Part shown: piece after piece, positions 6,835-18,660 of the stretch
How positions within the stretch are numbered: position 1 is the first letter of the stretch
Layout: every line of letters starts with the position of its first letter
Source of the DNA: Bacteroidota bacterium
GTDB taxonomy: Bacteria; Bacteroidota; Ignavibacteria; Kapaibacteriales; NICIL-2
Direction of reading: 5' to 3'
NCBI GenBank assembly: GCA_019695345.1
Contig: JAIBAE010000008.1
Span: 1 to 64,000 of the forward strand
DNA length: 64,000 nt
Notes under the pieces: generated by a model
Database searches by the model: none
What the model saw: the letters and a program-made list of their open reading frames with translations, nothing else
Told to the model about the DNA's origin: nothing
Made by a program: the position numbers and the translations under genes

Positions 6835-6897
6835 GTTCTGCTCCGCAACATGTTGGATGTTTGTTGCCGAACGTTTGGCGCGGTCGGGCGATAGCAA
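6835..6897 (-). repeat. Family A structured repeat, copy A1
   Basis: The minus strand reads GCTATCGCCCGACCGCGCC ... TGCGGAGCAGAAC. The stem CCGC/GCGG is kept, with a G-T wobble at the fifth pair. It lies upstream of leuS. Confidence 0.75.
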
Positions 6898-9712: not shown

Positions 9713-10090
9713 ATGAATGAGAATGAAATTTCGAAAGTAATCTTTGACTTCTCACTAAAAATACACCGAACTCTTGGTCCGGGACTTCTTGAGAGTGCCT
9801 ATGAATCCTGTTTGTATTATGAATTACATAAAGCAGGATTTACTGTTTCCCAACAAAAGCCATTGCCATTAGTATATGAAGATGTTATGCTTGAAGCGGG
9901 ATACAGAGTTGATTTATTAGTTGAGAACTCTGTGATTATAGAAGTTAAATCTGTAGATAAACTTGCTCCTGTTCACTTTGCACAAGTTCTTACATATTTA
10001 AAATTTTCAAACTGCAAGTTGGGAATTCTCGTGAATTTTAATGAATTTCTATTGAAAGATGGATTTAAACGTGTAGTGAATAAACTTTAG
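9713..10090 (+). CDS. GxxExxY family protein (PD-(D/E)XK-like)
   Basis: 125 aa. The family signature GLLESAY is at residues 24-30. A nuclease-like core follows, with D67 in YRVDLLV and E77-x-K79 in IIEVKS, matching the D...ExK arrangement of PD-(D/E)XK folds. The length is normal for the family. Biological function is unsettled in the literature. It stands alone between a CGCAAAG-rich patch on the left and a family B repeat on the right, and its AT content exceeds that of the neighbouring housekeeping genes. This fits a mobile, repeat-associated gene. Confidence 0.88.
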   Translation: MNENEISKVIFDFSLKIHRTLGPGLLESAYESCLYYELHKAGFTVSQQKPLPLVYEDVMLEAGYRVDLLVENSVIIEVKSVDKLAPVHFAQVLTYLKFSNCKLGILVNFNEFLLKDGFKRVVNKL

Positions 10091-13444: not shown

Positions 13445-13507
13445 TGCTATCGCCTGACCGCACCAACACTCAATCCTACAACACCCTCACCATGCGGAAG
13501 AAAACGT
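13445..13507 (+). repeat. Family A structured repeat, copy A3
   Basis: It starts 4 nt after the TPR gene stop, in sense: GCTATCGCCTGACCGCACC ... ATGCGGAAGAAAAC, stem CCGCA/TGCGG. Confidence 0.75.
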
Positions 13508-13634: not shown

Positions 13635-13683
13635 ACAGGCAAAAGGAATAATTCTTAGAGATTCGACAAGGAATTAGCAGTCT

Positions 13684-13849
13684 TAGAAACTGTTTAAGAA
13701 TTATTTAGAAACTGTCACACCCGAGAAATCGGGTGTCCATTTCACGAGATTAGAGATATGTGGATTCCCGATAAACGTTTACTCAGCGTTTTCGGGAATG
13801 ACGATCTTTGCTTTACATCATCCGATTTAAAACTTAAACAGTTTCTTAA
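13684..13849. mobile_element. Family C MITE-like element, copy C1
   Basis: About 166 bp bounded by inverted TAGAAACTGTTTAAG and CTTAAACAGTTTCTTA. Inside are a perfect hairpin ACACCCGA-gaaa-TCGGGTGT and a second arm pair ATTCCCGA ... TCGGGAAT. It has no coding capacity. It matches the copy at 18492-18660. Confidence 0.8.
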
Positions 13850-13867
13850 TTCATATTAGTATTGCCC

Positions 13868-14395
13868 TTATTGATAATCAGATTTGTGCAAACACATAAT
13901 AAGTTGATCCCAATATGTACTGTTATGTTTAAAGGCATGGTGCAGGTAACTGTATTGCGTAAAGCCCAACCGTTTATACAATTCTATTGCATTGTTATTA
14001 TCATGAACAACACCAAGTTCAATAATCTCGATAGATTCATTGCTAAAGGCGTGTTGTATTGTTTGCCGAAGTAGCGTAGTTCCTATACCGTTACCTTTAT
14101 ATTCTTTACGTACGTACATATTGCTGATTGTGCCACGGTGCTGTTTCTTTATTCTTGTTTCGTGTATAAAACCGCACATGCCAATTAGTGTATCGTTATC
14201 AAACGCTCCATACAGAAAGCTATCGGTAGTGTTACGTTCTAAGTACGTATCAAACTTTAGTGTTGGTGCTGCTATTTCTTCTTGATACAATACACCAAAG
14301 TTATCGGGGTATTGTTGCAAACACTCAAGGCGTAGTATTCTGTACTGTGCCTTATCGTTATTGGTAAGCAGACGGTATGTAATGTCTGTATTCAT
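13868..14395 (-). CDS. GNAT family N-acetyltransferase
   Basis: 175 aa, about the usual length of a single GNAT domain. Motif A, the acetyl-CoA pyrophosphate loop, reads VRKEYKGNGIGTTLLRQ, with K100-GNGIG-T. The preceding strand with the MYV motif and the C-terminal ELGVVHDNNNAIELYKRLGF segment are standard. It transfers an acetyl group from acetyl-CoA to an unidentified amine; the sequence resembles the RimI/small-molecule acetyltransferase type. It is isolated between repeats, and its stop lies about 20 bp from the MITE-like element C1. Confidence 0.88.
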   Translation of the reverse strand: MNTDITYRLLTNNDKAQYRILRLECLQQYPDNFGVLYQEEIAAPTLKFDTYLERNTTDSFLYGAFDNDTLIGMCGFIHETRIKKQHRGTISNMYVRKEYKGNGIGTTLLRQTIQHAFSNESIEIIELGVVHDNNNAIELYKRLGFTQYSYLHHAFKHNSTYWDQLIMCLHKSDYQ

Positions 14396-14459
14396 GTTTT
14401 TGCTCTTTTACAAAGTTGCATTACATCTATCAACGATAAACGTTTGGTAGCGTTGTGCA

Positions 14460-14520
14460 TGTTCTGCTCCGCACACTACGGTTGTTGTGCGCACACCACA
14501 CGGCGCGGATTGCGTTAGCA
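14460..14520 (-). repeat. Family A structured repeat, copy A4
   Basis: The minus strand reads GCTAACGCAATCCGCGCC ... GTGCGGAGCAGAAC. Stem CCGCGC/GTGCGG with one G-T pair. It starts 12 nt after the stop of the beta-helix gene, in sense. Confidence 0.72.
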
Positions 14521-14531
14521 AAACTTGTGTG

Positions 14532-16358
14532 CTATTCTGTTATCGCAAATAAATACGATGTTACAGTAGTTGAACTTTGCAGTACAAACGCGTACACACC
14601 TTTTGGCAAACCAAGATGATGCAGTTGTAGTTGTGTTGTGTTAGGTTGCAACATAGCACTGTAAACACTGTTGCCGTTAATAGAGTACATTGTAACACGG
14701 GTTGCAGTAAATATAGTTGTATGGATGTGCAACGTGCCATTGTTATACCAAACAACATTTGAGTTGTGTTGTGTGTTGTTATCGGTTACATCGGTAGTTG
14801 GTGAGTTTTGAATTGCACCCGCCACCGGATTACCATCGCGGAAATCATTCTTAAAATCACGGAAGAAAAAGTTAGAATACCCCCCATGAACTGTTTCCGG
14901 TTTTGCAGGGCGGTCTTTACCGGTAAAGTCGGGGATAGTAAACGTTTTGGCAGTTTGGATTTTCCCTTTTGCAACCGGAGAAAAATCTCCGCGCTCGGCA
15001 TCGGTAAAGTCGGGTTGCAATGTATTTATGGAATTTTCTTTTCGGATTTGTTCTTCGTTACATGTTGGGTTATCAACGCCGCAACCGTTTTCATCGCCAA
15101 CGCCAAGTGGTTTCGATTCATTACCATTCCAAATAATATTACCTTTAAACACAAGATTATCGTCGGCAAGGGTTGGTGTAGTTACATTACTGCCTGCCTG
15201 AAAATCGCCGCTGTATTTTCCAGCAATTGTAAAATGCTGGAACTCGCTTTGGTATCCTTCGGGGTTGTAGAAGATGTTATTGTACACAAACACATTTTTA
15301 TTGGGGATGCGTGTGTAATTATCACCATCGGCAATACGGCTGTTGCCCCAACCACCATAGGTAAGATACACACCACATGTATCAAAGTCACTTCCGGGTT
15401 GCCCATCGCACGAGCGAGAGCCAAACACTGCTTCGAACACGTGGCTACGTTTACCGCAACGGTACGCAGTGTTATGAGCAATAAGAATGTTATATCCGCC
15501 ATTTACACCAAACGCAGCGCCTTCGCAATCGTGTACAATGTTGTTTACAATTTTACAATCGTACGCTTCGTAGTGAAGCCACGGTACGGACATAAACTGA
15601 AATCCTGTTCCTTGTCCGGCGGTGTATCCGCCCGTACCGCCATCGTAAAATTCGTTACCGTTAATGGCTAAATATCCACTGCCACCTTTTGTATAAAAGG
15701 TCCAATCGCCGCTGTTGTGAATCTTGTTATTCTTAATATGCCCAAATTGTACGGCAACCATATCAACAGCGTTATCCCACGCACCGGAAATATCGCAATG
15801 TTCTATATACAAGTATTGGCTTTGGTTTACCTTTAAGCATTCTTGGGTTGTTGTTCTGTTCCCTTGTAGTGTGCAGTTGCGTAGTAATACAGTTTTGCAA
15901 TGGTCTATGTGAACTACATCGGCAGTAGCATCGGGTGCATTTAGTGTTAGCCCAATCAGATATATGTAGTTGCAATTGGCAATGTTAAATCCGGTTGATA
16001 TGCTAACCGATGAAGCTCCTTCTTCCGATTCAATTATCACAGGTGCTTGCATTGTTCCCCAACGGTTCTCCCAATACTGCGGAAAGTGCGCATTTGTATA
16101 GGTACCACGTTGCAGAACAATCTTAACGCCAAGTATTAAGTTAACATTTGGTGTAATCTTGTTCCATGCTGCGGTTACGGTAGCAAGCGGCTTTTCACGC
16201 GAACCGATGTTATCGTCACTACCCGTAGCAGGATTTACATACTGAATCATAAACTGTGGTGTGCCCATATCAAAAGCAAGATTGTTCACATCCTGTGCGC
16301 GGGAATCTACAAACACTATACTTACAACTGCAAAAACGGTACAAAGAAGTGACTTCAT
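14532..16358 (-). CDS. Secreted right-handed parallel beta-helix protein with T9SS sorting domain
   Basis: 608 aa. A Sec signal peptide (MKSLLCTVFAVVSIVFVDSR, cleavage near AQD) is followed by PATGSDDNIGSREKPLATV, the typical entry to parallel beta-helix proteins (the DUF1565/pectate-lyase-like class). Helix rungs extend over about residues 60-330 with recurrent N-x-I/V-x-N-N patterns (IKNNKIHNSGDW, IVNNIVHDCEGA, VYNNIFYNP). About the last 70 residues form a Por-like C-terminal sorting domain (VTMYSINGNSVYS ... LGLPKGVYAFVLQ). It is probably a surface polysaccharide-binding or lyase protein; no catalytic residues could be assigned. Confidence 0.82.
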   Translation of the reverse strand: MKSLLCTVFAVVSIVFVDSRAQDVNNLAFDMGTPQFMIQYVNPATGSDDNIGSREKPLATVTAAWNKITPNVNLILGVKIVLQRGTYTNAHFPQYWENRWGTMQAPVIIESEEGASSVSISTGFNIANCNYIYLIGLTLNAPDATADVVHIDHCKTVLLRNCTLQGNRTTTQECLKVNQSQYLYIEHCDISGAWDNAVDMVAVQFGHIKNNKIHNSGDWTFYTKGGSGYLAINGNEFYDGGTGGYTAGQGTGFQFMSVPWLHYEAYDCKIVNNIVHDCEGAAFGVNGGYNILIAHNTAYRCGKRSHVFEAVFGSRSCDGQPGSDFDTCGVYLTYGGWGNSRIADGDNYTRIPNKNVFVYNNIFYNPEGYQSEFQHFTIAGKYSGDFQAGSNVTTPTLADDNLVFKGNIIWNGNESKPLGVGDENGCGVDNPTCNEEQIRKENSINTLQPDFTDAERGDFSPVAKGKIQTAKTFTIPDFTGKDRPAKPETVHGGYSNFFFRDFKNDFRDGNPVAGAIQNSPTTDVTDNNTQHNSNVVWYNNGTLHIHTTIFTATRVTMYSINGNSVYSAMLQPNTTQLQLHHLGLPKGVYAFVLQSSTTVTSYLFAITE

Positions 16359-16422
16359 AAAAAGGGAACAGATAAATGGAACAACTGAATAAGTATCGGT
16401 AATTATTAACTACAGTAAAACT

Positions 16423-17553
16423 CTATGGCAATGTGCGGACTATGCGGAAACCAACATTATACACCGAGTGATGAGGTTGATTTTGTAACCTGCGCGGAAG
16501 GCGTTGATTAAATGCACCATCTAAAAAGCTACCACCGCGAATTACCCGTTCAGTACCAACAGCAACACCTGTTGGGTTAGTGCCCGATGATTGTTTGTAA
16601 GAAGTATTATCGTAATAATCCCAGCACCATTCTGCTACGTTACCGGTAACGTCGTAAAGACCAAACGCGTTAGGGCGTTTTAGCCCACCTTTGTGTACCG
16701 ACATATCGGAGTTTAAACAATACCAACCAATAACATCAAGGTCAGAATCCAACGTATCAGTATCCATACACGAAGCACGTATTTGCTCAACTGGTCCACC
16801 GTAGTAATCGGTTGTAACACCAGCACGGGCAAAGTATTCCCATTCAGCTTCGGTTGGCAGGCGGTAACCCGATGCCGAAAACAGACACTGCACAGTATCG
16901 CCCTTTATACTATAACATGGCGTGTAACCGGACCGAATTGACAAACGATTACAATAGTCAACTGCCTGAAACCACGTGATGTTTTCAACGGGGAACGAAC
17001 TATCCTGATGCCACGAAGGCGATGCCCCCATAATTGCATTCCATTGAGCTTGTGTTACCTCGTATCTACTTACTAACAGCTTTCTGGAAATAGAAACCTG
17101 ATGTACCGGACTTTCGTTTTCGGTAACGGTTGAACCCATAGAAAACGTTCCACCTGTAACAACCGCCATGTCAATCACGGGAATAACATCGCGGATATTG
17201 ATAAGCAATCCCGCTTCTTTAACAACGGTTCCTTTTTCGTAATTCACCATACGCACAGTTACGTTATACAACCCGGGTTTAGCAAACGTATGCGTAACCG
17301 ATGTTGAAGTTTTAAGCGATGTTGTTGTGGTATCTTCGTCAAAATTCCAATCGTAACGGATAGGTAAAGTAGTAAGCGAGTGGTTAGCAGTAAACGTGTA
17401 TTCTTTTGCTGTGTTGCCCTCGGTGCCAAGCATTAGATTGCTTGTTACATGCAGTTCATCAACGGTATTTATTACGGGTTCTACGGTGTTGCAAAACTCA
17501 GATGCACACACGCATAACGCCATCAAACAATATAGAGCAACCTGTTTACGCAT
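16423..17553 (-). CDS. PKD domain plus formylglycine-generating-enzyme-like (SUMF1) lipoprotein
   Basis: 376 aa from the ATG at 17553. The longer frame to 17616 is not favoured, because MRKQVALYCLMALCVCA begins a signal sequence directly. Residues about 30-125 form a PKD-like Ig fold (IRYDWNFDEDTTT ... FAKPGLYNVTVRM). Residues about 135-376 form an FGE-sulfatase domain: VTGGTFSMGS, EVTQAQWNAIMG, GYRLPTEAEWEYFARAG, VTGNVAEWCWDYY, RVIRGGSF. Bacterial proteins of this type often lack FGE activity and act as cell-surface structural or gliding-associated proteins. No sulfatase gene is adjacent, so sulfatase activation is not implied. Confidence 0.85.
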   Translation of the reverse strand: MRKQVALYCLMALCVCASEFCNTVEPVINTVDELHVTSNLMLGTEGNTAKEYTFTANHSLTTLPIRYDWNFDEDTTTTSLKTSTSVTHTFAKPGLYNVTVRMVNYEKGTVVKEAGLLINIRDVIPVIDMAVVTGGTFSMGSTVTENESPVHQVSISRKLLVSRYEVTQAQWNAIMGASPSWHQDSSFPVENITWFQAVDYCNRLSIRSGYTPCYSIKGDTVQCLFSASGYRLPTEAEWEYFARAGVTTDYYGGPVEQIRASCMDTDTLDSDLDVIGWYCLNSDMSVHKGGLKRPNAFGLYDVTGNVAEWCWDYYDNTSYKQSSGTNPTGVAVGTERVIRGGSFLDGAFNQRLPRRLQNQPHHSVYNVGFRIVRTLP

Positions 17554-17639
17554 ATTCAATAATACAACAAAGTAATCAATAATTACACAGAGTATTGCAA
17601 CACGGTAAGGACACAACTACAGAGTATTGGTTTCACTCT

Positions 17640-17702
17640 GTTGCCGAAGCAAGCCATACTGCGCCGTCACACAGGCGGAGCCAACCGTTACAGCGGCGCG
17701 GG
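17640..17702 (+). repeat. Family B intergenic repeat, copy 4
   Basis: TTGCCGAAGCAAGCCATACT then GCGCCGTCACACAGGCGGAGCC-type and CCAACCGTTACAGCGGCGC. It is the left arm of an inverted pair with 17886-17943. Confidence 0.75.
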
Positions 17703-17754
17703 TTTACTTGCGGATTCCGACTTAACATTGACGAACCACTTAGCGAAACGAAAG

Positions 17755-17850
17755 GTTGTTTAGCCCTTGCGTTCTTTGCGTGATATATTCTGTGTACGTC
17801 GGATTGCTCGCAAAGTACGCAAAGATTCGGTCAGGTGAAGTACGCAAGGA
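17755..17850. repeat. CGCAAAG inverted-repeat patch between two family B copies
   Basis: CCTTGCGTTCTTTGCG at about 17764 faces CGCAAAGTACGCAAAG at about 17810. The same layout recurs at 63290-63370. Between 17554 and 18030 no gene is seen. Confidence 0.6.
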
Positions 17851-17885
17851 TGTGTATAAACACGATGTATTCTGCGCGACGCAGA

Positions 17886-17943
17886 TCGTGTGGCTCGCAC
17901 CGGGTTGGCGCGCTTGAGATTTGCTTCGGCAGAGGCGGGGAAC
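17886..17943 (-). repeat. Family B intergenic repeat, copy 5
   Basis: The minus strand reads CCCCGCCTCTGCCGAAGC then GCGCCAACCCGGTGCGAGCC: near-perfect subtype 1 consensus. Confidence 0.8.
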
Positions 17944-18030
17944 CAAATGCCTATCATGTTTTATTTGTCAGGGTAGTGTTGGGTAAAATAGTGTAAGTTC
18001 GTGCAGACTATATAAACGCAATGGAATGTT

Positions 18031-18495
18031 ATGAAAGTACTTGTAATGTTTGTGGTGTGCCTGCCGTTGTTATGGATAACATCGTGCTCCGATTCCGAGA
18101 CCACGGAAAACGAAGAGGCGTTTCTTCAGTCCAGTACGTACGGTTCTAAAAGCCATAACACCGGTTCCGATTGTATGCAATGCCATAAAAAAGGTGGTGG
18201 TGCAAAAGGGATATTTACGGTAGCAGGTTCGGTATATCAATTGGATAAATCCAGACCCAACCCAAACGGGTTAGTATTCCTATCGGCATTGGCTAACGGA
18301 CGTGAGCAAGAGGTACAATTAAACGTAGATGGCTTAGGAAATTTTTATACTACCGAAACCGTTGCGTTTGGCAAAGGGTTGTACCCGCAACATAAAAGTA
18401 GCAAGGATACAATACGGTACATGAACGATGCCATAACAAACGGAAGTTGCAACAGTTGCCACGGACGTACTACTGATGTAATTTATAATTATTAA
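18031..18495 (+). CDS. Diheme cytochrome c-like lipoprotein
   Basis: 154 aa. A lipoprotein signal MKVLVMFVVCLPLLWITSC has its lipobox cysteine at C19. Two CxxCH heme-c attachment motifs are present: C48MQCH52 and C140NSCH144, with about 90 residues between. The first heme site sits in an SHNTGSDCMQCHKKGGG context, as in small cytochrome-like redox lipoproteins. It would be exported, lipidated and probably diheme. No cytochrome maturation gene or redox partner is adjacent. The stop codon TAA lies inside the terminal repeat of the MITE-like element C2, so the natural C-terminus may have been altered by its insertion. Confidence 0.82.
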   Translation: MKVLVMFVVCLPLLWITSCSDSETTENEEAFLQSSTYGSKSHNTGSDCMQCHKKGGGAKGIFTVAGSVYQLDKSRPNPNGLVFLSALANGREQEVQLNVDGLGNFYTTETVAFGKGLYPQHKSSKDTIRYMNDAITNGSCNSCHGRTTDVIYNY

Positions 18496-18660
18496 GAAAC
18501 TGTTTAAAGAAGTATTCAATGGCTGTCATACCCGAGAAATCGGGTATCCATTTTACGTAGAAAGAGACTTATGGATTCCCGATAAACGCCTATTCAGCGT
18601 TTTCGGGAATGACAATCATTGCTTTACACCATTCAATTTAAAACGTAAACTGTTTCTAAA
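18492..18660. mobile_element. Family C MITE-like element, copy C2
   Basis: TTAAGAAACTGTTTAAAG at the left and ACGTAAACTGTTTCTAAA at the right form terminal inverted repeats. Inside are ATACCCGA-gaaa-TCGGGTAT and ATTCCCGA ... TCGGGAAT hairpins, as in C1. The first hairpin stem differs from C1 by a compensated pair (ACACCCGA/TCGGGTGT versus ATACCCGA/TCGGGTAT). Confidence 0.82.

Follow-up and report, generated by a model that had tools for sequence, protein, structure and literature searches.

The hairpins of the widespread CGTC-tagged REP superfamily, which includes the neisserial dRS3 (CGTC-1), carry a CGTC or TGTC tag and a CCA tail, have A–T pairs at the first positions of a stem of 8–9 bp, with a loop of 4–5, and occur as head-to-head dimers (PMC3733652). 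Their mode of dispersal has been stated as open, with no mobiliser known, and Di Nocera et al. have described palindromes that enclose REP dimers in Halothiobacillus and Anabaena, reading these palindromes as targets (PMC3733652). QMITE2 of Coxiella burnetii is a MITE of 150–190 bp that holds a GTAG REP and is flanked by direct repeats of 7–11 bp; its smaller, end-less copies resemble plain REPs, and have been proposed to result from MITE decay (PMC5896051). Insertion sequences of the IS1031 subgroup of the IS5 family make 3-bp TNA repeats, and one member, ISLrh, possesses the terminal inverted repeat (TIR) GAACCTGTCTAGTATCT and the terminus GAACCTGTCTAG (PMC12016507). The element described herein, termed family C, is closest to QMITE2 in its layout, while its ends come nearest to IS1031 and its interior to the CGTC-tagged REPs.

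Two copies of family C, C1 and C2, lie within the window (the whole stretch of DNA that was analysed, at 64,000 nt), and display 81–84 % identity to each other. The original prediction had placed them at 13684–13849 and 18492–18660; both copies are real, but those bounds partly cover the flanking 3-bp direct repeats, with the exact limits being 13686–13845 for C1 (160 bp) and 18496–18656 for C2 (161 bp). The terminal inverted repeats that the two had been said to share are likewise present, matching over 13 of 13 bp in C1, and over 10 of the first 11 bp in C2. From left to right on the forward strand, C1 is preceded by a target-site duplication TTA (13683–13685), identical to the TTA that follows the element (13846–13848), and opens with the left TIR GAAACTGTTTAAG (13686–13698), whose 13 positions are all complementary to the right TIR (13833–13845, reverse strand). 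Between these ends lie a short hairpin, REP1, of the form TGTCACACCCGA-GAAA-TCGGGTGTCCA (13713–13739, forward strand), delineated by alignment, covariation and model match, and a long hairpin in the opposite orientation, REP2, which reads GTCATTCCCG...CGGGAATCCA on the reverse strand (13761–13803). C2 has the same arrangement, with a TAA at 18493–18495 repeated at 18657–18659 (both forward strand), the left TIR GAAACTGTTTAAA at 18496–18508 (forward strand), REP1 as TGTCATACCCGA-GAAA-TCGGGTATCCA at 18524–18550 (forward strand), REP2 at 18572–18614 (reverse strand), and the right TIR at 18644–18656 (reverse strand; CGTAAACTGTTTC when read on the forward strand). No ORF of at least 80 aa overlaps either copy.

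Whilst two copies of family C had been noted in the window, this figure proved too low for the genome, as a search for further copies using C2 as query returned 44 BLAST matches, spread over many contigs of the draft (4.56 Mb, 163 contigs). Searching with a covariance model built on the paired hairpins gave 63 matches at E-values up to 1, weak and reverse-strand matches included, and the end 12-mer GAAACTGTTTAA occurs 14 times, compared to 0 for its reversed control. There are dozens of family C copies in this one genome, mostly decayed. They take a short form of ~160 bp and a long form of ~183 bp with a longer right arm, alongside forms that bear an extra insert of ~20 nt in the second hairpin, which measure ~202 bp when the long arm accompanies it. 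This insert, near GAACTNCRTTGGGCTTCGCC, is common to L013, L017, L020 and L026, and interrupts the long hairpin on its 5′ side. A further copy, L103 on contig C15, has both ends present but only one REP. Beyond this genome, the element was not found in seven other genomes of the same taxonomic family, nor in plasmid and phage collections, and yielded no match in an exact pattern scan of a collection of genome contigs. Across 40 relatives it was not found either, bar one 31-base match in G034; this sequence was rejected as a copy, being a separate TGTC-tagged REP dimer, TGTCATTCCCGCGAAGGCGGGAATCCAG ... CTGGATACCCGCCTTCGCGGGTATGACA (L082, G034:C5:6607-6637), which lacks the GAAACTG ends and comes from a different family within the same order.

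With regard to the ends, a consensus fitted to 30 copies left 13 that passed the thresholds for both inverted ends (GAAACTGTTTAAG). Immediately outside these, the flanking triplet conforms to TNA on the left in 10 of the 13 copies, and on the right in nine, against a background of 6.7 % in nearby flanks (P ~4 × 10−10 and ~1 × 10−8, respectively). Identical triplets flank both sides of five scored copies, namely C1 (TTA), C2 (TAA), L003 (TGA), L006 (TAA) and L020 (TTA); L016 is also flanked by TAA on both sides, but its left end is too decayed for the threshold, and so it falls outside the 13. Taken alone, the identity of the two triplets is no more than suggestive (P 0.06 in each of two tests). 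Among the seven copies with TNA on both sides, however, direct matches of the triplet outnumber inverted matches by five to one, which indicates that the TNA is not just an extension of the inverted repeat. An arms-only search of the genome recovered no arms detached from the REP core, and uncovered no autonomous or REP-less element. The MITE-like character originally proposed for family C is therefore borne out by its terminal inverted repeats, its TNA flanks with direct repeats and its many copies. The family C end agrees with that of ISLrh at nine of the first 12 bases, and family C resembles IS1031-subgroup elements and their derived MITEs in its related ends, its TNA target and its 3-bp direct repeat, whilst differing in that it lacks a transposase gene and has a REP dimer as its interior. 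As its ends and TNA duplications are like those of the IS1031 subgroup, family C is best read as a MITE, and, judging from ends and target alone, as a putative derivative of that subgroup.

Turning to the interior, in both hairpins one end carries the TGTC tag and the opposite end CCA, the first stem positions hold A–T pairs, and the two are arranged head-to-head. The suggested likeness to dRS3-like units consequently holds, in that both fit the CGTC/TGTC-tagged REP superfamily to which dRS3 belongs (PMC3733652), sharing with it the tag, the first-position A–T pairs, the CCA tail, the head-to-head dimers and an intergenic location. The stem of REP1, at 7–8 pairs, is roughly within the described 8–9 bp, but that of REP2 is far longer, at 14 pairs, and has a larger loop. 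A second departure from the described CGTC-tagged REPs is that most of the dimers here are enclosed in an element that has ends and is flanked by TNA. The compensated change noted in the stem of the first hairpin was confirmed, and such changes are seen across a set of 24 copies; here, 97.4 % of stem cells pair, and at five stem pairs both partners have changed, giving 18 doubly changed cells where shuffles give 4.0. Moreover, C1 and C2 each fold better than all of 200 shuffled sequences, with z-scores of −7.2 and −4.6.

Taken together, it is likely that family C is a MITE, probably moved in trans by an IS5/IS1031-type DDE transposase, and carrying an amplified REP dimer. Under such a mechanism, the transposase would have recognised the 13-bp ends and inserted the element into TNA, duplicating those 3 bp, with the interior TGTC/CGTC-tagged REP dimer being carried and amplified along with the MITE. 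The type of transposase is presumptive, as would be any effect of the hairpins at the RNA level. Within the assembly, neither an insertion sequence of IS1031 type nor a partner transposase with family C ends was found. Two PF01609 genes on a single 3.2-kb contig (C133) were set aside as partners, being without family C ends, as were the PF01797 genes at L031–L033, which are without family C REPs or ends. Two of the latter loci, L031 (G000:C123:46025-46369) and L032 (G000:C53:24389-24763), hold Y1_Tnp genes, one intact and one broken, which are bordered by other short palindromes and resemble REPtrons unrelated to family C. The exact 13-mer end has 12 copies in this genome and at most two in each of 394 other genomes of the phylum, amongst which no insertion sequence with exact 13-mer ends was detected; inverted 13-mer pairs at 30 loci from other phylum genomes numbered two versus one in the control, and are thus at control level. 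Nothing relevant to the end sequence emerged from the literature. A partner transposon is not strictly required, however, since one could have escaped the draft assembly, and a MITE may persist after its partner has been lost.

The strong folding and compensatory changes could also be expected of an element kept as a functional 3′-UTR or terminator, whose copies reflect selection more than transposition, and the location of the copies between genes (~9 convergent versus 3 divergent pairs by simple ORF calling) is in keeping with this. Such a role appears unlikely, as C1 and C2 bear no intrinsic-terminator signature, no Rfam family matches the element, it was not found in the seven other genomes of the taxonomic family, and the TNA flanks point to transposition. 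A different possibility is that what moves is the REP dimer itself, as a REPIN mobilised by a RAYT tyrosine transposase, with the outer palindrome serving only as an insertion target. The reading given by Di Nocera et al. to the palindromes around REP dimers in Halothiobacillus and Anabaena is of this kind (PMC3733652), PF01797 genes are present in the genome, members of the same REP family are seen without ends as both singles and dimers, and L082 provides a TGTC REP dimer without family C ends in the same order. Nevertheless, we consider this quite improbable, given that the search recovered no arms lacking the REP core, that a pre-existing target palindrome would not need TNA and direct repeats outside its ends, and that the PF01797 loci examined lack family C REPs and ends, with L031 and L032 being bordered by palindromes of other sequence. 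In comparison with the reported palindrome-flanked CGTC REP dimer, palindromes without REPs are similarly not found here, but the palindrome sequence differs, and its authors read a target rather than transposon ends.

If family C is accordingly taken as a MITE, there is still the matter of how its REPs relate to those outside it, which include singles, such as L087, L101, L104 and L106, and the dimers L108 and L111. The layout recalls QMITE2 (PMC5896051), in that a MITE of similar size holds a REP and is accompanied by smaller end-less copies resembling plain REPs, although family C has TGTC/CGTC rather than GTAG REPs, and 3-bp TNA rather than 7–11 bp repeats. By this precedent, the free REPs might be nothing but decayed MITE copies that have lost their ends, with no independent REP history in this genome, and L018, L021 and L026 do look end-less yet retain remnants of the ends, spaced as expected. 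That decay accounts for all of the free REPs is possible, if somewhat doubtful. The REP1 loop is mostly GAGAAATC in end-bearing cores but mostly GTGAAAAC in free dimers, and the free copies fall largely elsewhere on the tree; in addition, contig C157 has a close group of three REP2-like units and there is a canonical singleton (L101, L087), and L082 represents an end-less REP dimer from another family of the order. End-bearing cores cluster on a weakly supported tree, with five label changes versus a shuffled mean of 10.7 (0 of 500 shuffles), and a single clean clade of such cores was not accepted, as tree support is weak. This clustering, the loop difference and L082 lend mild support to a REP dimer having been captured by the MITE and then amplified, rather than the reverse. 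Decay of MITEs into bare REPs is the main alternative to capture, and probably contributes.

C2 adjoins a gene for a diheme c-type cytochrome-like lipoprotein of 154 aa with two CxxCH motifs (18031–18495, forward strand), and it had been proposed both that C2 supplies the stop codon of this gene and that it may thereby have set the C-terminus of the protein. The TAA at 18493–18495 is indeed the stop of the gene, yet it is no part of the element, adjoining C2 from the outside as one copy of its target duplication. Among 123 genomes of the order that were searched, a sole orthologue was identified, L148 in genome G087 (E-value 2.8 × 10−32), and a scan of a collection of genome contigs found no relative. 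In both proteins, exactly 10 residues follow the second CxxCH motif (CNSCH), and the L148 locus resembles C1 and C2 only at the level of chance words. Given this equal tail in an element-free orthologue, C2 neither shortened nor extended the lipoprotein, as far as one orthologue tells, and the second proposal is not upheld. Insertion of C2 would have occurred at the TAA stop codon, with the target duplication rebuilding the stop and leaving the protein intact. An element adjoining a stop codon therefore need not change the protein, because the TAA stop is itself a TNA target that the duplication rebuilds. Elsewhere, the left end of L008 (G000:C79:19147-19271) directly follows the TAA stop of a 230-aa ORF, and that of L012 (G000:C152:10691-10812) gives the in-frame TAA of a 272-aa ORF (...EETV*). 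L012 is thus a candidate for an element that set a C-terminus, and the idea first raised for C2 may apply there.

A REP dimer within clear transposon ends and TNA flanks offers a testable dispersal route for the CGTC-tagged REPs, and hints that an ordinary cut-and-paste transposon can disperse REP hairpins as its passengers. More speculatively, and with some doubt on our part, CGTC-class REPs might have spread in this lineage as the cargo of IS1031-type MITEs, with the 41-bp Halothiobacillus palindromes likewise being transposon ends; if true, REP dispersal would often be DDE-mediated hitch-hiking.

The window also contains other dispersed repeats. One, of ~40–60 nt, comprises TGCTATCGCCCGACCGCACC and its reverse complement, and occurs at positions 6858, 13445, 22047, 35713, 41162, 42120, 44504, 45654, 45770 and 60925, with the copy at 13445 lying directly 3′ of a gene end. 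Another, around GCGCGCCAACCCGGTGCGAGCC, is present in both orientations at 2530, 10132, 17630, 17892, 19714, 35563, 39256, 63217 and 63434. Separately, positions 9713–10090 encode a PD-(D/E)XK nuclease-family protein (PF13366, E-value 5.8 × 10−41).
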